Shown here piece after piece: positions 1,115-11,472 of a DNA stretch of 21,674 nucleotides. The position numbers and the translations under genes are program-made. The notes under the pieces are model-generated. The model was not told the origin of the DNA and searched no databases. It saw nothing but the letters and a program-made list of their open reading frames with translations. The stretch comes from a virus. How positions within the stretch are numbered: the stretch's first letter is position 1; every line of letters starts with the position of its first letter. Location: positions 1 through 21,674 of IMG/VR virus record IMGVR_UViG_3300037264_004562; one strand, 5' to 3'.

Positions 1115-1600
1115 ATGGACAACGATCTAGTCAAGAGGCGCCGCAAGGAACTCAACGCGCGCCAGGCCGCCTACGTTGCGAATCGCGAGAGAGGGGCCAC
1201 AAGGCAGCAGTCAGCCATCCTAGCGGGGTACGCGGACGTGGACAAAGCCGGCGAGCAGGTCGAGGAGGCAGAAGTGGTGCAGGAGGCGCTCCAGGAGGCA
1301 CGCACGGAGCTGGCCAAGGCCACCGGGATTACGAAAGAGCAGATCCTGGAGGGCCTGAAGGAGGCTGCCGACATGGCCAAGCTCCTCGCCGACCCCCAGG
1401 CGATGGTCCGGGCATGGTCCGAGATCGGGAAAATGCTCGGACACTACGCTCCGGAGGTCAAAAAGCACCTCCACGGGGTCGATCCGAAGACCGCGGAGGC
1501 CCTGAAGGCCCTTTCTGACGCGGAATTGTACAAAATCTCGCGCGGAAGGGTCGTAGAAGGCGAGTTTGTGCTTATAGACACCAAAAAAGAGGCGGAATAG
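1115..1600 (+). CDS. terS: terminase small subunit (TerS)
   Basis: TerS binds the packaging start site on concatemeric phage DNA, delivers it to the large subunit and stimulates it. The N-terminus (about residues 13-55, LNARQAAYVANRERGATRQQSAILAGYADVDKAG in short pieces) has the layout of a TerS helix-turn-helix: LxxxQxxYV, then an A/S-rich helix ending in AGY. The middle (from GITKEQILEGL at about 71-81 to IGKMLGHYAPE) matches the oligomerisation helices of the same family. At 161 residues the length is normal. The stop overlaps the GTG of terL by one base (TAGTG), so the two are translationally coupled. The extreme C-terminus is acidic and lysine-rich. Packaging sites are often inside or close to terS, and the repeated TATAGACAC at its 3' end is a candidate. 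Confidence 0.85.
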   Translation: MDNDLVKRRRKELNARQAAYVANRERGATRQQSAILAGYADVDKAGEQVEEAEVVQEALQEARTELAKATGITKEQILEGLKEAADMAKLLADPQAMVRAWSEIGKMLGHYAPEVKKHLHGVDPKTAEALKALSDAELYKISRGRVVEGEFVLIDTKKEAE

Positions 1601-1613
1601 TGTCTATAGACAC
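1573..1613. repeat. TATAGACAC direct repeat with perfect 14-bp palindrome at terS/terL junction
   Basis: TATAGACAC occurs at 1573-1581 and again at 1605-1613. The second copy is the right half of the perfect palindrome GTGTCTATAGACAC (1600-1613), which includes the terL start codon. A dyad overlapping the start codon could be a protein-binding site (packaging recognition or autoregulation), or an RNA hairpin that limits terL translation. The GTGTC/GACAC core recurs many times in the island after terL. Confidence 0.5.
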
Positions 1614-3441
1614 GCAACTGGAGCAGTGGGAGAAGAAGTGCGACGTCTGCAACGAGGTCAAGCACTCCAACCTGTTCTACAGGCGCCACCCGACGTGCAA
1701 ATCGTGCCTCCGGGTGCAGTCTCACGTGACCCGGAACGCCACCACCCTCGAGGAGAAGGTCGAGGATCACCGGGTGAAGCGGGAGGTCCTGCGGCTGGAG
1801 CGCAAGGAGCTCAAGGCGATCGCCCGGAAGCGGGTGCACGACCGCACGTACCGCCGGAAGGTGCGCGCACGGGAGGCGCTGGAGCCCAAGATCGAGGAGC
1901 ACGCGATTGAGGTCGACGCGGCGACCAAGGAGCTGGCCAGGCGCGAGCTTTCACGGCGCCGGCTGATCGAGTTCGTGCAGGAGTTCCACCCGCGGTACAA
2001 GGCGGGGTGGGTCCACCGGGACATCTGCACCCGCCTGGAGAAGTTCCTGGCCGACGTGGCGGCCGGAAGGTCTCCCCGGCTCATGATCCTGATGCCACCG
2101 CGGCACGGGAAGACCCAGCTGGCCACGAAGACCTTCCCGGCGTTCGCGCTGGGGCACTACAACCACTTCGAGATCATCGCCTGCTCGTACAACATCTCGC
2201 TCGCCCTGGAGTTCTCGCGCGAGACCCGGAATATTGTGCGTTCAAAACCGTACACGACGCTTTTCCCGGGAGCCATCATCGACCCGGAGATCCAGTCGGC
2301 CGAGGCGTGGAAGCTGGTGTCACCGACCGGCGTCGGAGCCGGCGGATATGTCGCGGCTGGCATAGGAGGCCCGATCACGGGCAAGGGCGCGCACATCCTG
2401 GTGATCGACGACCCCATCAAGAACGCGGAGGAGGCCGAGAGCCTCGAGCAGCGCCAGAAGATCTGGAACTGGTACACGTCGACGGCCTACACCCGGCTCG
2501 CGCCGGGAGGCGGCGTGCTGGTCATCCAGACATGCTGGCACGACGACGACCTGGCGGGCCGGATCCAGCAGGCCATGAAGGACGACCCAGACGCGGACCA
2601 GTTCGAGATCGTGAAGTACCCGGCGATCGCCGTGGAGGACGAGCAGTACCGGGTGGCGGGAGAGGCCCTACACGCGGCGCGATACGACGCGGAGGCGCTG
2701 GCCAGGATCAAGCGCACGATCGGCCTGCGGTACTGGGCCGCGCTGTACCAGCAGGACCCGGTGCCGGACGAGGGCGCCTTCTTCACGAAGGAGATGATCG
2801 TCACCCGGACGGAGCACGTGGACACCAAGTTCACCCACATCTACCAGGCCTGGGACTTCGCGATCAGCGAGAAGCGGCAGAACGACTGGAACGTGGGTGT
2901 CACGATCGCTTTGGATTACAATGACGTCGCGCACATCATAGAGATGGTGCGGTTCAAGACCAACGACTCCGCCAAGATCGTCGAGGAGATGCTGGACATG
3001 TGGGAGCGCCACAAGGGACGGGGCCTCAACGGCAGCGGCGTGATTGCCCTGGGGGCGGAGGACGGCCAGATCTGGCGGACGATGTCCGCCCTGCTGAAGA
3101 AGCGGATGCGCGAGCGCCGGATGTACCCGACGTTCGAGGTCCAGAAGCCCCTGACCGACAAGTCGGTCCGGGCGGGGCCCCTCCAGGGCCGGATGCAGAA
3201 CGGGAAGGTGACCTTCCCGCGGGCGTCGCCCTGGCTGGAGGCTGCCACCAAGGAGCTCCTGCGGTTCCCGTCCGGGATCCACGACGACATAGTCGACGCG
3301 CTGGCCTGGGCCGTTACCCTGGTCGTGAGCCGCGCGCCGCCGCAGCCGCCGGTCTACCGGGGGGCAAAGCGGGAGAAAACGGTCGAGGAGAAGGTCCGGA
3401 GGCTGGCTCGGGGGCCCTCCGGAGGGTCAATGGCGGCCTGA
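1600..3441 (+). CDS. terL: terminase large subunit (TerL) with N-terminal zinc ribbon
   Basis: TerL is the packaging motor ATPase and nuclease. Walker A is MPPRHGKT (about residues 165-172), Walker B is HILVIDDP (about 265-272), and the coupling-type motif VIQTCWHDDD follows (308-317). The RNase H-fold nuclease acidic residues are visible as YQAWDF (D419), GAED (E487/D488) and HDDIVDALAWA (D562, D563, D566). The start is GTG at 1600, with AGAGG seven bases upstream and a one-base overlap with terS. The protein is 613 residues because about 120 residues precede the motor core: a CxxC-x15-CxxC motif (C14, C17, C33, C36) and then a very charged, probably coiled helical stretch (about 50-120). 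This zinc ribbon resembles those found before endonuclease VII-like phage nucleases and is unusual on a terminase. The motor call is firm; the role of the extension is unknown. Confidence 0.95.
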   Translation: MSIDTQLEQWEKKCDVCNEVKHSNLFYRRHPTCKSCLRVQSHVTRNATTLEEKVEDHRVKREVLRLERKELKAIARKRVHDRTYRRKVRAREALEPKIEEHAIEVDAATKELARRELSRRRLIEFVQEFHPRYKAGWVHRDICTRLEKFLADVAAGRSPRLMILMPPRHGKTQLATKTFPAFALGHYNHFEIIACSYNISLALEFSRETRNIVRSKPYTTLFPGAIIDPEIQSAEAWKLVSPTGVGAGGYVAAGIGGPITGKGAHILVIDDPIKNAEEAESLEQRQKIWNWYTSTAYTRLAPGGGVLVIQTCWHDDDLAGRIQQAMKDDPDADQFEIVKYPAIAVEDEQYRVAGEALHAARYDAEALARIKRTIGLRYWAALYQQDPVPDEGAFFTKEMIVTRTEHVDTKFTHIYQAWDFAISEKRQNDWNVGVTIALDYNDVAHIIEMVRFKTNDSAKIVEEMLDMWERHKGRGLNGSGVIALGAEDGQIWRTMSALLKKRMRERRMYPTFEVQKPLTDKSVRAGPLQGRMQNGKVTFPRASPWLEAATKELLRFPSGIHDDIVDALAWAVTLVVSRAPPQPPVYRGAKREKTVEEKVRRLARGPSGGSMAA

Positions 3442-3451
3442 TTCGGACAAA

Positions 3452-3467
3452 GTTAGTGTCCACTAAC
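3452..3467. repeat. inverted repeat GTTAGTG-TC-CACTAAC
   Basis: Perfect 7-bp arms around a two-base centre lie eleven bases after the terL stop. As RNA it could form a 6-bp stem with a GTCC loop. No T-run follows on either strand, so it is not an intrinsic terminator. It shares the GTGTC core with the other motifs of the island and is more likely a binding site. Confidence 0.4.
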
Positions 3468-3585
3468 CTAAAAATGCGGCCAAATCTCGTGACCTTTTTA
3501 AAACTCGTGTCCCCCTGTATTGATAGAAATCAAGTACTTGGGCGAAAAGTCACGGACACGAGATTTTCTACCTTTTATATATATA

Positions 3586-3614
3586 TTCTTCTTCTTCTTC
3601 TTCTTCTTCTTCTT
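3586..3614. repeat. (TTC)9 microsatellite
   Basis: Nine perfect TTC units plus TT follow directly on a TA dinucleotide tract and precede an A-rich run. The result is a pyrimidine tract switching to a purine tract on one strand. It is non-coding and lies about 110 bases before the next start. Such tracts change length by slippage and bend or melt easily. Confidence 0.9.
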
Positions 3615-3682
3615 AAAAAGTAAAAAAAACTCGTGACCTCGTGTCTTTTTCGGTTTTATCCCGCCGGATCAACCACATGAGT

Positions 3683-3713
3683 GGACACGAGTTGGACACG
3701 AATAGGACACGAG
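3683..3713 (+). repeat. three tandem 11-bp iterons GGACACGA(G/A)
   Basis: GGACACGA(G/A) starts at 3683, 3694 and 3705, an exact 11-bp period, so all copies face the same side of the helix. A related GGTCACGAG begins at 3713. The last copies overlap the GAGG (3711-3714) that would serve as the ribosome site for the ATG at 3724, so a bound protein could affect that gene directly. Inverted copies (CTCGTGTC) lie upstream at 3504 and 3638. Confidence 0.75.
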
Positions 3714-3723
3714 GTCACGAGTT

Positions 3724-5772
3724 ATGCTGAGAAGGAGCATCCAGGCAGGCGGAGAGAAGTGGGCGAAGTACGCCGGGCGCAAGCTCGCTGCGCTGACGAA
3801 GCTCAGGGTGCACCTCAACCTGCCGCGGATGCACCGGACCTTCTTCCCCGAGAGCGGGGTCACGGTCTGGGTCCAGTCGTCCCGGTTCGGGGACTGGATG
3901 AAGATCACCGCGGGCGAGTACGAGGCGACCTGGGGATACAGAGAGGTCTCTGGTCACACGGGCTCGTCTTCGTTTGCAGACGAGTTTCGTCAAGGGCTCG
4001 GTCCCTCCTCTGACTTCCTGATTGGCGACACCACTACGACCCTTGGAGAGTCCGAGGTCGAGCCCGCGGAGTATTCGAAGAACGGCAAGGCCGCCCTTTC
4101 CATCCCCGCCGCTGCGTACGCCGCCGAGGACGCGTTTCCCGTCGGCACCGTCCCCGAGGACATCACCCTCAGGCACCGCCCCGGGAACGAGTCAGTCGTC
4201 TTCGCGCACATGATGCCCGCGGCGGTGCCCGCCTACTCCTTCTTTCGGCGAAGGCACGGCAACCTGTCGAAGAAGGGAGACTACGCGGCCCTCATCTGGT
4301 CTCCGGGGGAGTTCGACAGCTCGCTGACTAGGATCGCCAACGGCGCGAAGTGGCTTCCGCCGGTTCCGCCAAGCGAGACCGGGGCCTGGGAGTCGTTCGA
4401 CATTCCGTTCCCGACGTCCTACTTCGACGCCCTCGGGGTCTCCGTGACTGACCTCGGCGGCGGGAACTACCAGACGACAATCCAGCACGGATTCAAGCCG
4501 CGGAGCTTCGACTTGGGCAGCGACCCGCCCGGGGCCGAGGTAAGCGTCAACTGGATCTTGGTGCCGTCGTATGTCGTCCGAGACGTCGAGTGGCGGCAGA
4601 CGATGAATCCGTACAACAGCAAGAAGCTGCTCATAGAGGTGATAGCCTCGATCGAGGGCATTTCCACCTCGGAGATTCACCCGCCGTTCGAGGAGTCGTT
4701 CCAGCACTACATGTTCGGGGACGAGCGGTGGGTTCGGTACGTGGGAGAGTTTGACCTGGTCACGCGCCTGTGGACCACGCTCTCCGAGACGTTCGAGACC
4801 GACACGTACGAGGACGCCGCCGACTTGGTGGACCTAGGGCCGCCGACCTTCGCCTTTCAGTACCAGACTTTCTACAGCGGCGGGGATGTTCCTCAGTTCG
4901 ACACGCTGATCCCCGCCTTTCGGCTGAACGGCGCCTTCGCCGACGTCCACTTCGACAACCGCGCCACGCCGACGCGTCTCTCGGCGGTCGACGTGACGCT
5001 CGACGGCGTGCTCTGGTTCTCCAACATCAGCGTCGACAGCGCCGCTGGCGGCCCCACCAACGCGCTGGATCCCCGGGGAGTGACGGTCAGGCACCTGGGC
5101 ACGGAGGACCGCGGCGCCATCACCGCGTCGTTCGCCGGCGACGGGCGCGAGGGCACCTTCTGGAAGCACACCGACGGAGAGTGGACGACGACGGCGGTGG
5201 AGGCGGCCAACCTGTGGTCGAAGAACGCCGAGTGGATGGCGCGCGGCACGGACAACCGCCTGCTGTACAAGAACGGCACGCAGGTGTTCGACGGCGCTGC
5301 GGACCTGATGAAGGTGTGGAACGCCTCCTACGACAAGGACGGCGAGTTCTACGGGGAGCACAAGAGCCCGACCGCCGTTCCCGAGTCCTACACCGTGTGG
5401 ACAGGCATCGTGGACTTGCCCGGTCCCGGATCCATTCCCTGCAACGCGGGCGTGGGGCGGGGGATCTACACGCAGCCCGACGAGACGGATTCGGGCGGGA
5501 CGAAGGTCGGCACGTGGTTTCTCGCCGGCGGCGTCCTGTCCTTCACGGCGATTGCCAGCTATCCGCCCGGCACGGTTCTCGTGATCACCGGAGGCTCGTT
5601 CGTGCTGGCCGAGCCCAGCATCACGGAGAACTTCGTGTTCAGGGTCAAGGAGGTTGAGTCCGTGTTTTCCATCGAGACCACCAGGCTAATACCGTCTGGC
5701 TTCAACGACCTCGTGACTGGGTACACCCGCGACAACGAGATACATCCGCTAAGTGTGGTCGCGGCCAAGTAA
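3724..5772 (+). CDS. orphan 682-aa protein between terL and portal, probably virion-associated
   Basis: I do not recognise this protein. The start is the first in-frame ATG after a TAG, with GAGG nine bases upstream. The first 35 residues are basic (LRR, KKYAGRK-like spacing, KLR), and the rest is rich in Trp, Tyr, Phe, Ser, Thr and Gly with short alternating hydrophobic stretches, so mostly beta-structure is likely. There is no signal peptide, membrane helix, cysteine cluster or nucleotide-binding motif. Position between the terminase and the portal suggests a head- or tail-associated structural protein, but portal genes normally follow terL directly, so the placement is unusual. Expression may be controlled by the repeat island that overlaps its ribosome site. 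The stop is followed immediately by the TATAAT box of the portal gene. Wobble bases look slightly less GC-biased than in the portal. Confidence 0.85.
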   Translation: MLRRSIQAGGEKWAKYAGRKLAALTKLRVHLNLPRMHRTFFPESGVTVWVQSSRFGDWMKITAGEYEATWGYREVSGHTGSSSFADEFRQGLGPSSDFLIGDTTTTLGESEVEPAEYSKNGKAALSIPAAAYAAEDAFPVGTVPEDITLRHRPGNESVVFAHMMPAAVPAYSFFRRRHGNLSKKGDYAALIWSPGEFDSSLTRIANGAKWLPPVPPSETGAWESFDIPFPTSYFDALGVSVTDLGGGNYQTTIQHGFKPRSFDLGSDPPGAEVSVNWILVPSYVVRDVEWRQTMNPYNSKKLLIEVIASIEGISTSEIHPPFEESFQHYMFGDERWVRYVGEFDLVTRLWTTLSETFETDTYEDAADLVDLGPPTFAFQYQTFYSGGDVPQFDTLIPAFRLNGAFADVHFDNRATPTRLSAVDVTLDGVLWFSNISVDSAAGGPTNALDPRGVTVRHLGTEDRGAITASFAGDGREGTFWKHTDGEWTTTAVEAANLWSKNAEWMARGTDNRLLYKNGTQVFDGAADLMKVWNASYDKDGEFYGEHKSPTAVPESYTVWTGIVDLPGPGSIPCNAGVGRGIYTQPDETDSGGTKVGTWFLAGGVLSFTAIASYPPGTVLVITGGSFVLAEPSITENFVFRVKEVESVFSIETTRLIPSGFNDLVTGYTRDNEIHPLSVVAAK

Positions 5773-5786: not shown

Positions 5787-7919
5787 ATGCCGCAAAACCA
5801 CCAACTAGCCCGGGAGCAGTGGCTGCGCTACGTCTACGCCCGCGATACCGGGCACCTGGACTACGTCAAGAAGGCGGTCCGGTGCGAGGACTTCGTTGAG
5901 GGCGGCGACAAGCAGTGGGACCCGAGAGACAAGGCCGAGCTCGACGCGGCCCGAAGGCCCGCGCTCACCCTGAACAAGACCCTTCTGACCCTGAACTCGA
6001 TCTGCGGAGAGCAGATAGACACGCGCACCGAGACGGTGTTCCGGCCGCGCTACAACGCGCCGCCCGACGCGGCCGAGATCCACACCAAGGTCTACAAGTT
6101 CATCGGCGACCAGAACCAGCTGAACTGGGTCCGGTCCGCCGTCTTCGCCGACGGCGCCGTCACGTCCCGCGGGTACTTCGACGTCCGGCTGGACTTCTCG
6201 AAGAACCTGGCCGGGGACGTCGCGATCACGCAGCTGAACGGGCGGAACGTCCTTCCGGACCCCGACGCCGCGGCCTACGACCCCGACAAGTGGAACGACG
6301 TCATCGTCACGTCCTGGTTCACCGGCGACGACATCCAGCTCCTGTACAACAAGGCCGACGCGGACGCCCTGCGCCGGCGCGTGGACTCGGCGTGGGCCTT
6401 CGGCTACGACTCGATCGACATGGGCAACGACCGCTTCGGCGGCAGCATCGCCGCCCAGGCCGTCGTGACGGAGGAGATGAAGCCGATGCTCCGGAACATC
6501 CGGGTGCTGGAGCGCCAGCACCGGGTGCTGACGAAGCGGAGGGTCTTCGTCGACGTCCGGCTCGGCATGAAGCGCCCGATCCCCGACGAGTGGACCCGCG
6601 ACCAGGTCGCGCAGTTCCTGTCGGAGAACGGGCAGCTGGTCGTGTCGGAGGAGCTGGTCAAGCGCATCCGGTGGACCGTCACGGCCGACGACTTCGTCCT
6701 GCTGGACGAGTGGAGCCCGTACAAGCACTTCACCATCGTGCCCTACTTCCCGGTGTTCCGGTACGGCCGCACGATCGGCCTGATCGAGCACGTGCTGGGC
6801 CCGCAGGAGTACCTCAACAAGGTCTCCAGCCAGGAGCTCCACGTGGTCAACACCATGGCGAACTCCGGCTGGAAGGTGAGGTCGAACGCGATCCTCAACA
6901 TGACCCTGGAGGAGCTCGAGGAGCTCGGCGCCAAGACGGGCCTGGTCCTGGAGATCGCGGGAGATCCCGACAAGGACGTGGTCAAGATCGCGCCGAACCC
7001 GGTCCCGCAGGGCCTCGACCGCATCTCGTTCAAGGCCGAGCAGCTGATCAAGTCGATCTCCGGCCGCGGCGACAGCGTCATGGGCCTGGACCGGGCCGAC
7101 GTGTCCGGCAAGGCCATCGGCGAGAAGAAGGAGTCGGCCGACGTCCCGCTCCGCCCGGCGCTGGACAACCTGGAGCGCTCGGACTTCATCCTGGCGCGGA
7201 GCATCATCGACATCGTCCAGCAGTACTACACCGACCCCCGGATCCTGAACATCACGAAGGACGATCTGACCGGCGAGATGGAGACGGTCTCCGTCAACCA
7301 GCCGCAGCCCGGCTCCGGCGAGGTCATGCACGACCTGTCGCTGGGCGAGTTCGACATCGTCATCACCAGCCAGTCCGCCAAGCGGACCCTGGAGGAGTCG
7401 CAGTTCCAGCAGGGCATCGCGATGCGCGAGCTCGGCATCCAGATCCCCGACAAGTACCTCATCAAGAACTCCAACCTCCTGGACAAGGCGAACATCGTCA
7501 AGGACATGGAGCAGGCGGCCAACTCCCCCGAGGCGCAGCTGGAGAAGAAGAACGTGGCCCTGGCCCAGTCCCTGGAGGTCGCGAACCTCAAGGGCGACGC
7601 GGTCGAGAAGGAGTCGAAGGCCACGCTCAACAAGGCCAAGACGGCCGAGACCCTCGCCAAGGCCCAGGCCGAGTCCGGCGGGCAGGACGGCGAGATGATC
7701 CTGGCGAAGCAGAAGCACGACCAGGAGATGCAGCAGAGCCGGGAGCTCCACGACCAGAAGATGCAGCAGATGCGCGAGGAGGCGGCCGCGAAGGCGGAGG
7801 AGCGGCAGATGATGGCGCGCGTGAAGGAGATGGAGGCGAAGGCCAAGGCGGTCATCGCGGTGAAGCAGGCCGCGAAGCCGGCGCCGGCGAAAGGTGGTAA
7901 CATGGCGGCACAACCTTAG
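5787..7919 (+). CDS. portal protein, P22-like
   Basis: The portal forms the dodecameric ring at one head vertex through which DNA enters and leaves, and it nucleates capsid assembly. The N-terminus (REQWLRYVYARDTGHLDY, then a DKQWDP loop and RPALTLNKTLLTLNSICGEQ at about 51-70) follows the P22-like portal layout, as do the segments YGRTIGLIEHVLGPQEYLNK and the crown region with SGKAIGEKK. The last 140 residues or so are Lys/Glu/Gln/Ala-rich continuous helix (coiled coil), which matches the helical barrel of P22-type portals that protrudes into the head. Length 710 is in the usual range for this type. The start has a TATAAT box but no good Shine-Dalgarno. The scaffold gene begins 13 bases after the stop. 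Confidence 0.9.
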   Translation: MPQNHQLAREQWLRYVYARDTGHLDYVKKAVRCEDFVEGGDKQWDPRDKAELDAARRPALTLNKTLLTLNSICGEQIDTRTETVFRPRYNAPPDAAEIHTKVYKFIGDQNQLNWVRSAVFADGAVTSRGYFDVRLDFSKNLAGDVAITQLNGRNVLPDPDAAAYDPDKWNDVIVTSWFTGDDIQLLYNKADADALRRRVDSAWAFGYDSIDMGNDRFGGSIAAQAVVTEEMKPMLRNIRVLERQHRVLTKRRVFVDVRLGMKRPIPDEWTRDQVAQFLSENGQLVVSEELVKRIRWTVTADDFVLLDEWSPYKHFTIVPYFPVFRYGRTIGLIEHVLGPQEYLNKVSSQELHVVNTMANSGWKVRSNAILNMTLEELEELGAKTGLVLEIAGDPDKDVVKIAPNPVPQGLDRISFKAEQLIKSISGRGDSVMGLDRADVSGKAIGEKKESADVPLRPALDNLERSDFILARSIIDIVQQYYTDPRILNITKDDLTGEMETVSVNQPQPGSGEVMHDLSLGEFDIVITSQSAKRTLEESQFQQGIAMRELGIQIPDKYLIKNSNLLDKANIVKDMEQAANSPEAQLEKKNVALAQSLEVANLKGDAVEKESKATLNKAKTAETLAKAQAESGGQDGEMILAKQKHDQEMQQSRELHDQKMQQMREEAAAKAEERQMMARVKEMEAKAKAVIAVKQAAKPAPAKGGNMAAQP

Positions 7920-7932
7920 GAAAGGGCAGCGC

Positions 7933-8856
7933 ATGAGCGAAGAAGATAACGTGGACCGCGGCGACGCGCACGAGAGCAAGCTGGACGACGACCTGACGGC
8001 GGAGGAGCGCACGGCAGCCGACGAGGCTGTAGCGAAGGCCAAGGCCGACGAGGAAGTCGCGGCGAAGGCCAAGGCCGAGGAAGAGGTCAAGATCCCGAAG
8101 GCGCGCTTCGACGAGGCGGTGTCCAAGGCCCGCAAGGGCGAGGAGGCCGCGAAGGCCGAGACGGCCGCCCTGAAGGCGAAGCTGGACGCCCAGGAGAAGA
8201 AGGCGGCGGAGGACCCGGACAAGGCCGAGAAGGAGCTCGACGCGATCGACGAGCAGATCGACCAGGCGCTGGCCGACGGCAACAAGGAGAAGGTGACGCA
8301 GCTGCGCAGGCAGGCGCGCGCCAAGATGCAGGATATCGCGCAGGGCAACGCGAACAAGGCCGCGGCGTACGCGACCGCGGTCGCGGTGGAGCGCGTGCAG
8401 TACGACGCGGCGGTGTCGTCGTTCGAGGCCAAGCACCCGGCCATGAACCCCGACCACGACGACTTCGACGAGGCCCTGACCGGCGAGCTGATCGAGCTCA
8501 AGGGGGCCTACGAGGCGGCTGGCCTCGGCAGCACCGAGGCCCTGAAGAAGGCGGTGAAGTTCGTCTTCAAGGAGGCGCCGAAGGAGGCGAAGAAAGAGGA
8601 CGAGGCGGACCCCGAGAAGGCCGAGGCCGCGAAGAAGGAGGCGGCCGAGAAGGCGGCGAAGATGAAGGAGGACGCCATCCGGCGCGGGATCGAGGCGAAG
8701 GGCAAGCAGCCCGCGGCCGACGCCGACAAGGTTGGCAAGGCGAGCGACAAGCGCGGCGCGGGCGACAAGACCCTTGACGCCACGAAGATGAGCGACAGGG
8801 ACTTCGCCAAGCTGGGCGACGAAGAGAAGGCGAGGCTGCGCGGCGACATGCTGTAA
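7933..8856 (+). CDS. probable capsid scaffolding protein
   Basis: Scaffolds line the inside of the procapsid and leave or are degraded during maturation. The 307-residue product is almost entirely Lys/Glu/Ala/Asp, with long predicted helices and nearly no aromatic residues. It is acidic at the start and strongly charged throughout, as expected for an extended coiled-coil scaffold. I chose ATG 7933 because AGGAAAGGG lies just upstream. An in-frame GTG at 7894 would add 13 residues but overlaps the portal gene. It lies between portal and major capsid, the normal scaffold position. There is no protease motif. The identification rests on position and composition, because scaffold sequences diverge quickly. 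Confidence 0.75.
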   Translation: MSEEDNVDRGDAHESKLDDDLTAEERTAADEAVAKAKADEEVAAKAKAEEEVKIPKARFDEAVSKARKGEEAAKAETAALKAKLDAQEKKAAEDPDKAEKELDAIDEQIDQALADGNKEKVTQLRRQARAKMQDIAQGNANKAAAYATAVAVERVQYDAAVSSFEAKHPAMNPDHDDFDEALTGELIELKGAYEAAGLGSTEALKKAVKFVFKEAPKEAKKEDEADPEKAEAAKKEAAEKAAKMKEDAIRRGIEAKGKQPAADADKVGKASDKRGAGDKTLDATKMSDRDFAKLGDEEKARLRGDML

Positions 8857-8866
8857 AGGAGGAGCT

Positions 8867-9148
8867 ATGGGCATGAGGGCGCTGTTTCGTACGGCGGGCG
8901 TTACCAGCGAACAGGTGGTCTTCGCGCGGCGCTGCCGCGTGTTCGGCATCAACCCGGAGCTGACTACGACCGGGACAATCACCCTTCGCGACTCGGCGAC
9001 TGCCGGCGGCGCGAACGTGATCCACGTGTGCGCCATCGGCCTGACCCAGGTGGGCAAGTCCCTGGAGGGCGCGGTGTTCTACAACGGCCTGACGGTCCAG
9101 CTGTCCGTCGGAACGGACCTGACGGGCGTCACGTACGAGGCCTTCTGA
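8867..9148 (+). CDS. small virion-like protein, 93 aa, paralogue of the next gene
   Basis: A strong AAAGGAGG precedes the ATG, ten bases after the scaffold stop. No known family is recognised with confidence. The core (about residues 28-93) reads as beta-strands: INPELTTTGTITLRDS, then GLTQVGKSL and GLTVQLSVGTDLTGVTYEAF. The same pattern, in the same order, forms the two ends of the 210-residue protein encoded next (VVPEQTMAGTLQIRSA and GLAQDGKSF, GITVVLSNGADRVGVVFKEV). The two are therefore duplicated genes. Head-module position suggests a decoration, head-completion or minor head protein; this is inference. A second in-frame ATG at 8873 is possible but less well spaced. Confidence 0.8.
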   Translation: MGMRALFRTAGVTSEQVVFARRCRVFGINPELTTTGTITLRDSATAGGANVIHVCAIGLTQVGKSLEGAVFYNGLTVQLSVGTDLTGVTYEAF

Positions 9149-10353: not shown

Positions 10354-11472
10354 ATGACCGCAACGAACTTTACCCTGCTGACAACCGAGCAGAAGACCGT
10401 CTGGTCGCGCGACCTGTGGAAGTACGCGCGAAACATGGCGTTCGTCAGCAAGCACACGGGCGATGGCCCGAACGCGATGATCCAGCACATCAAGGAGCTC
10501 ACCAAGACTGAGAAAGGTGCGCGCGCCGTGATGACCCTCGTGCCCGACCTGGAAGGCGACGGCGTAGCCGGCGACCGCCAGTTGGATGGCAACGAGGAGG
10601 CCATGAAGGCCTACGACAAGGTCATCCGCATCGACCAGCTCCGGAATGCGAACATCTCGGAAGGCCGCATGGCCGACCAGAAGACGATCGTCAAGTTCCG
10701 CGAGACCTCGCGGGACGTGCTGGCCTACTGGCTGGCTGACCGCATCGACCAGATGGCGTTCCTGACGCTGTCCGGCGTGTCGTACACGCTCAAGAACAAC
10801 GGCGCGACCAGGACCGGTTCGGACCTGATCAACCTGGAGTTCGCGGCGGACGTCGCGGCCCCGACCTCGGCGCGCAAGCTCCGCTGGAACGGTACCGACG
10901 GCTCGTTCACCGTCAACGGCGCGACCTCCGCGGTCACCGCGGCCGACACTCCCTCCTGGGAGATGATCGTCAAGCTGAAGGCCTACGCGAAGGAAGAGTA
11001 CATTCGCGGCCTGAGGGGCGACGGCGGCAGCGAGAAGTTCAAGCTGTTCCTGACCCCGACTGCGATGTCGAAGCTGAAGCTCGACCCGCAGTACCTCGCG
11101 GCCCTGCAGTACGCGAAGAAGCGCGGCGGGGACAACGAGCTCTTCACCGGTGACGTCGTAGACGTCGACGGCGTGGAGATCCACGAGTTCCGGCACGTGT
11201 TCAACACCAGCGGTCTGGCTTCCGGCTCCAAGTGGGGCTCGGGCGGCCTGGTCGAGGGCTGCCAGGCGCTGTTCTGCGGCGCACAGGCAATGGGCATGGC
11301 TGACCTCGGCATGCCGGAATGGATCGAGGACGACAAGGACTACAAGAACAAGCAGGCCATCGCGGTCGGCAAGATCCTCGGCTTCCTGAAGCCGTCGTAC
11401 ATCACCCAGTACGGCCAGGGCGCGGCGACGTCGCAAGACTTCGGCGTGATCTCGGTCTACCTGGCACAGTAA
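10354..11472 (+). CDS. major capsid protein, N4 gp56 family
   Basis: This is the main shell protein with an HK97-type fold. Features matching the N4 gp56-like family include the N-terminus (LLTTEQKTVWSRDLWKYARN, then FVSKHTGDGPNAMIQ), the conserved block KGARAVMTLVPDLEGDGVAGDRQLDGNEEAMKAYDKVIRIDQLRNA split over about residues 51-95, and the following DVLAYWLADRIDQMAFLTLSG. The C-terminal half carries the expected VDVDGVEIHEFRHV strand and GAQAMGMADLG segment. Length 372 fits the family. GAGAGGTGG is an excellent ribosome site. It has its own promoter and leader and is followed by two small decoration-like genes and a terminator, forming a separate high-level expression unit. Confidence 0.92.
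   Translation: MTATNFTLLTTEQKTVWSRDLWKYARNMAFVSKHTGDGPNAMIQHIKELTKTEKGARAVMTLVPDLEGDGVAGDRQLDGNEEAMKAYDKVIRIDQLRNANISEGRMADQKTIVKFRETSRDVLAYWLADRIDQMAFLTLSGVSYTLKNNGATRTGSDLINLEFAADVAAPTSARKLRWNGTDGSFTVNGATSAVTAADTPSWEMIVKLKAYAKEEYIRGLRGDGGSEKFKLFLTPTAMSKLKLDPQYLAALQYAKKRGGDNELFTGDVVDVDGVEIHEFRHVFNTSGLASGSKWGSGGLVEGCQALFCGAQAMGMADLGMPEWIEDDKDYKNKQAIAVGKILGFLKPSYITQYGQGAATSQDFGVISVYLAQ

Follow-up and report, generated by a model that had tools for sequence, protein, structure and literature searches.

The window analysed here, the whole 21,674-base IMG/VR virus record IMGVR_UViG_3300037264_004562, carries late genes of a P22-like podovirus whose nearest named relatives at the DNA level are the Pseudomonas phages phiR18 and KPP25. 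On the plus strand, the genes for the terminase small subunit (terS, 1115..1600; PHROG 51, E 1.4e-6) and large subunit (terL, 1600..3441; PHROG 38, E 6e-115) are followed by an AT-rich intergenic island (3442..3723), which we propose to be a replication origin, and then directly by an ORFan of 682 aa, P0001 (3724..5772), and the gene for a P22-like portal protein (5787..7919; PF16510, E 4e-82); the major head protein is encoded at 10354-11472. P0001 has no Pfam or PHROG matches, a search of viral or phage collections with it as the sole query turned up no relatives, and its AlphaFold model has a mean pLDDT of 27. The end of the portal gene and the next gene (7500-8900) show a strong positive AT skew (0.4-0.64).

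The island fills the space between its flanking genes exactly, from the terL stop at 3441 to the next ATG at 3724. Its GC content is 0.41 versus about 0.66 in the surroundings, and the minimum over all 282-bp windows of the sequence is reached by the one starting at 3447 (0.404; away from this area, the lowest value is 0.543), in agreement with an earlier note that described an AT-rich island among high-GC genes. All sequence elements listed in that note are present, i.e. seven GTGTC/GACAC motifs (3456, 3507, 3555, 3641, 3684, 3695 and 3706), four GTGAC/GTCAC motifs (3489, 3549, 3633 and 3714), a TA tract ((TA)5, 3576-3585), (TTC)9 (3586-3612) and an A-run (A8, 3622-3629). A better description of the repeated unit is [CT]TCGTG[AT]C, which has nine sites on both strands, three to the left and six to the right of an AT-rich core (3563..3629, 81% AT) that comprises the three tracts and is the proposed melting region. 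The left cluster consists of CTCGTGAC (3486..3493, plus strand) and CTCGTGTC (3504..3511, plus; 3555..3562, minus, with an extra GTCACG adjoining at 3549), while the right cluster consists of CTCGTGAC (3630..3637) and CTCGTGTC (3638..3645) on the plus strand followed on the minus strand by CTCGTGTC (3684..3691), TTCGTGTC (3695..3702) and CTCGTGTC (3706..3713) in 11-bp steps, and by CTCGTGAC (3714..3721). At the left edge, the palindrome TTAGTGTCCACTAA (3453..3466), read directly, is possibly a degenerate site.

Exact CTCGTGWC occurs eight times within the 282-base island versus two times elsewhere in the window (21.4 kb). When the island was dinucleotide-shuffled 5000 times, the copies averaged 0.02 and never exceeded 1, and the island's best two-way 8-mer count was reached by none of 1000 shuffles. 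Taken over the window, the 5-mer GTGTC by itself shows no enrichment (46 copies against 66 expected); the earlier note is corrected in that it is the longer unit that is enriched. There are no DnaA boxes (TTATNCACA) in 3442-3723, and Rfam and tRNA searches returned nothing. Because it mostly reflects motifs present both ways, a single-strand DNA fold with a z of -5.8 was rejected as evidence for structure. Stoperators of the mycobacteriophage L5 type were likewise rejected, as the sites are not scattered and eight of the ten exact ones lie in one 282-bp stretch.

A portal search combined with a TerL alignment search identified syntenic records that keep the place of the island and change its motif. 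The order terS-terL-island-ORFan-portal is shared by L053 and L255, and by L052 from terL onward (this locus starts near terL), at TerL identities to the window of 57%, 53% and 62%, respectively. The GC content of the three islands is 0.33-0.37, and each has its own two-way motif around an AT-rich core (GTTACGAG in L052, AAGTGTAGT in L053 and TGTTACGATC in L255) in numbers that none of 1000 shuffles matched; CTCGTGAC of the window differs by one base from CTCGTAAC of L052. Judged by these gene orders, placement within the packaging cluster is a feature that the window's clade conserves and no one-off. Conservation in relatives, one of the checks proposed in the earlier note, was thus borne out, and the location between terL and a structural gene, which that note called unusual, recurs in this clade. 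All four phages encode a P0001-type ORFan of about 620-720 aa, devoid of Pfam or PHROG matches, in the interval from island to portal (homologues at L052 2375-4234, L053 3987-5948 and L255 8316-10472). A search of viral contigs for the window's motif by GGACACGAG pairs gave 41 stretches and no leads, since conservation of the motif does not extend from one phage to another.

Other relatives carry such islands elsewhere. In L079, a smaller island with GTTACGAA stands right after terL without the ORFan. In phiR18, the gap between terL and portal is 13 bp with neither island nor ORFan, and islands with GTTACGAA and variants are found at 36.7-37.2 kb and 5.1-5.5 kb. When 350-bp windows were scanned for two-way 7-mers, about half of the longer relatives proved to have low-GC islands, whose motifs differ from one another; a complete relative with an island between terL and portal was not found in the collections searched. 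Very dense two-way islands were also seen in genome loci of Parendozoicomonas haliclonae (L353 4250-4900, CCTCTAC x13) and Motiliproteus coralliicola (L361 5500-6100, TGACACA x9); both loci have a terminase of the window's family, and their fetched flanks yielded no DUF5906 primase.

In relatives, the islands are tied to a gene for a primase-helicase with a DUF5906 domain (PF19263), the helicase domain also found in the primase-polymerase of the Nitratiruptor phage NrS-1. Besides phiR18 gp32 itself, homologues of this protein in seven relative records carry the domain. The window's terminase family occurs together with a DUF5906 primase-helicase in phiR18 and in eight of 18 records, several of the others being short fragments, and a primase-helicase is encoded within the fetched flank upstream of terL in 12 of 24 TerL-family loci from bacterial genomes (prophage or genome). 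The DUF5906 gene is absent from the window and from L052, L053 and L255, all of which are fragments. From its frequency at the TerL-family loci, we suggest that the window's phage probably encodes such an enzyme beyond the end of the record; given that the fragment is without the initiator gene, the tie of DUF5906 to the window's own island is one of kinship.

The island lies directly upstream of the DUF5906 gene in L056 and L062 and adjoins the primase-helicase gene in L175, L178, L180 and L241. When 80 loci were fetched by alignment of DUF5906 proteins, 16 of 27 low-GC two-way islands were located at -600..+100 of the gene start versus 4.5% expected (p 3e-15), a p value that, like the others from this set, is somewhat too small because near-duplicate loci such as L232/L233 are included. 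In a shuffle test of the 600 bp upstream of the gene, 17 of 79 loci passed at p 0.005 or less and an island was undetected in 57 of 79. Among the controls, the lowest-GC window elsewhere in each locus, five of 79 passed, and all five turned out to be those loci's islands, 2.4-5 kb off; hence AT-rich intergenic DNA as such does not yield the pattern. Several named phages with distant DUF5906 enzymes have no island near the gene. Motif similarity did not significantly track any part of the primase-helicase, and a motif-protein covariation in 60-residue windows was discarded, as the p values among the 37 windows were no better than a nominal 0.01-0.05. On the contig of L062 (L137 17550-18050), a small XRE-like gene was seen by eye to begin within the island, and its first codons contain copies of the motif.

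NrS-1 provides an outside anchor, as its terminase has no similarity to those of the window's group while its primase is homologous to the DUF5906 primases of the window's relatives. In the 37-kb genome of NrS-1, all 11 copies of AGTGTAAC are confined to 17.06-17.38 kb, in the interval that separates the DUF5906 primase gene from terS, with five copies on one strand and six on the opposite one; the same octamer is also used by L178, L241 and L250. Passages of one NrS-1 study show primer-free initiation of DNA synthesis by the enzyme at the recognition sequence TTTGGTTA (PMC8718748), of which we found one exact copy in the genome, inside the island and overlapping a repeat. Passages of another report two copies of the recognition sequence, both mid-genome and suggested as a possible origin, and an assay oligonucleotide that contains TTTGACCA (PMC7102993). 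This count is at odds with ours: there is the single exact TTTGGTTA, and of TTTGACCA we found four copies, of which one lies in the island, two are no more than about 200 bp away from it and the fourth is 3 kb off. These passages of PMC8718748 and PMC7102993 do not mention the repeat island. NrS-1 thus resembles the window in having a short two-way motif in an AT-rich island beside the terminase genes, and differs in its motif (AGTGTAACC versus CTCGTGWC) and in the position of the island, which in NrS-1 is between primase and terS and in the window between terL and the ORFan. The NrS-1 start sequence TTTGGTTA is absent from the window's island. The annotated hypothetical protein NRS1_29 (L331 17055-17456) nearly coincides with the AGTGTAAC island and probably does not represent a real gene. 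In Stenotrophomonas phage S1, CCGCACA occurs 11 times on both strands between primase and terS (L332 2351-2900), in a region that underlies the annotated gp2 (2454-2804) and is not AT-rich.

Altogether, the two motif clusters around an AT-rich core, the conserved layout with a changing motif, the position of relatives' islands beside the primase-helicase gene, and the coincidence of island and start sequence in NrS-1 favor a model, to which we assign a probability of roughly 0.73, whereby the phage replicates from the island, as its sole origin or as one of several, and the initiator is most likely the DUF5906 enzyme. In this model, the window's phage would encode a primase-polymerase fused to an SF3 helicase (DUF5906), most likely in the missing part of the genome. 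The eight-base sites would be iterons, and the initiator would recognize CTCGTGWC and bind both iteron sets, melt the AT-rich core between them, and allow the helicase to load as a ring, whereupon replication would start at the island with DNA synthesis primed from or near the iterons. Of the two readings offered in the earlier note, origin or multi-operator control region, the comparative evidence thus supports the former and makes the latter less likely. GC skew, which that note proposed to compute, gave no support for the island as an origin over the window; it is uninformative here because the window is a fragment and because skew in phiR18 follows gene direction. The skew maximum of phiR18, at 39.6 kb, is where gene direction changes and therefore does not decide on the 37-kb island.

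The proposed origin can be compared with several known systems. In the origin of phage lambda, the iterons are located inside the O gene on one side of an AT-rich stretch; the window's iterons similarly adjoin an AT-rich stretch but occupy an intergenic region, where they lie on both strands and flank the stretch on either side. In satellite phage P4, the alpha protein is a primase-helicase initiator, and the cis sites ori and crr contain repeats in both orientations (see also PMC6092414). With its two same-motif islands about half a genome apart (L166 5100-5500 and L049 150-650), phiR18 may resemble P4, which has crr as a second cis site beside ori, or else a genome with two origins; in the window's fragment, one island only is seen. 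The closest parallel in layout may be the origins of PICIs, in which two iteron sets surround an AT-rich region and which are replicated by the element's own primase-helicase (PMC6092414). Both these and SaPI origins (as cited in PMC7581432) have short iterons in two sets around an AT-rich region, a motif that varies among elements, and a helicase as initiator that is often fused to a primase. The window's island has the short iteron in two sets, 3 + 6, and the AT-rich region between them; however, PICI/SaPI origins adjoin the rep gene while the island lies between terL and portal of a P22-like podovirus, with terL and the ORFan as its neighbors. As it does not adjoin an initiator gene, we suggest that it may work like a PICI/SaPI origin and do not class it as one. 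Finally, AAGTG iterons are required by the related helicase Cch2 of SCCmec, which contacts its putative origin through the C-terminal domain (PMC7581432). In the SCCmec system, too, a D5/SF3-type helicase acts on short intergenic iterons, and AAAGTG motifs are found in the related phage islands of L053, L178, L232 and NrS-1; by contrast, the Cch2 site has three iterons only, and AAGTG is absent from the window's motif.

Alternatively, the island could be a packaging site (pac or cos-like), at which the motifs bind TerS and mark the site of the TerL cut. Its position directly after terL, the location of islands within about 4 kb of terS in many relatives and just upstream of terS in NrS-1, S1 and RHph_I65, and the prediction that Kochitakasuviruses are headful packagers (PMC13119210) are all in line with this idea. 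Nevertheless, we consider it unlikely, since it is the primase rather than the terminase that motif and island go with: relatives' islands are tight to the primase-helicase gene rather than to terS, and NrS-1 has AGTGTAAC in common with L178, L241 and L250 even though its terminase is unrelated and only its primase is homologous. Moreover, phiR18 has two islands 31 kb apart where a single packaging site would be expected, and a packaging site gives the AT-rich core no role. Even less probable is a cluster of operators through which a phage regulator would control the downstream genes, from the ORFan and portal onward, or the divergent promoters of relatives. Islands of relatives do lie between divergent operons, the XRE-like gene of L062 starts within one, and a gene start marks the right edge of the window's island; yet that island stands within one co-directional run of late genes, a promoter scan found no sigma-70-like promoter in it, its sites surround the AT core and not a promoter, and a regulator family was not recognized among the shared neighbors analysed. 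Either a packaging site or an operator cluster could coexist with an origin.

Least probable, and in our view very improbable, is a non-replicative element, either a partition or recombination site or the relic of a mobile element whose insertion placed island and P0001 together between terL and portal. The 13-bp gap in phiR18 makes the two look as if they were inserted together. Against this, similar islands exist elsewhere without the ORFan, in L079 even beside terL, mobile-element ends were not recognized, and the motif is renewed in each lineage, unlike a relic.

More broadly, we tentatively suggest, at somewhat less than even odds, that the island represents a class of origin that is widespread in tailed phages and served by primase-polymerase/SF3-helicase enzymes, in which the iteron is rewritten among close relatives while layout and place stay fixed, and that one clade has had its origin relocated from the early region to the packaging operon, where it now separates terL from portal. 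In phages with DUF5906 primase-polymerases, for which NrS-1 is the studied model, the replication start site has so far only been suggested. With the islands, NrS-1, the Pseudomonas Kochitakasuviruses and many uncultured phages each have a concrete origin that can be put to the test, and the fast change of the iteron at a fixed place offers a natural data set on how initiator and origin change together. If the model is correct, an origin within the packaging operon would raise the question of how the start of replication and the packaging of DNA avoid interfering with each other.
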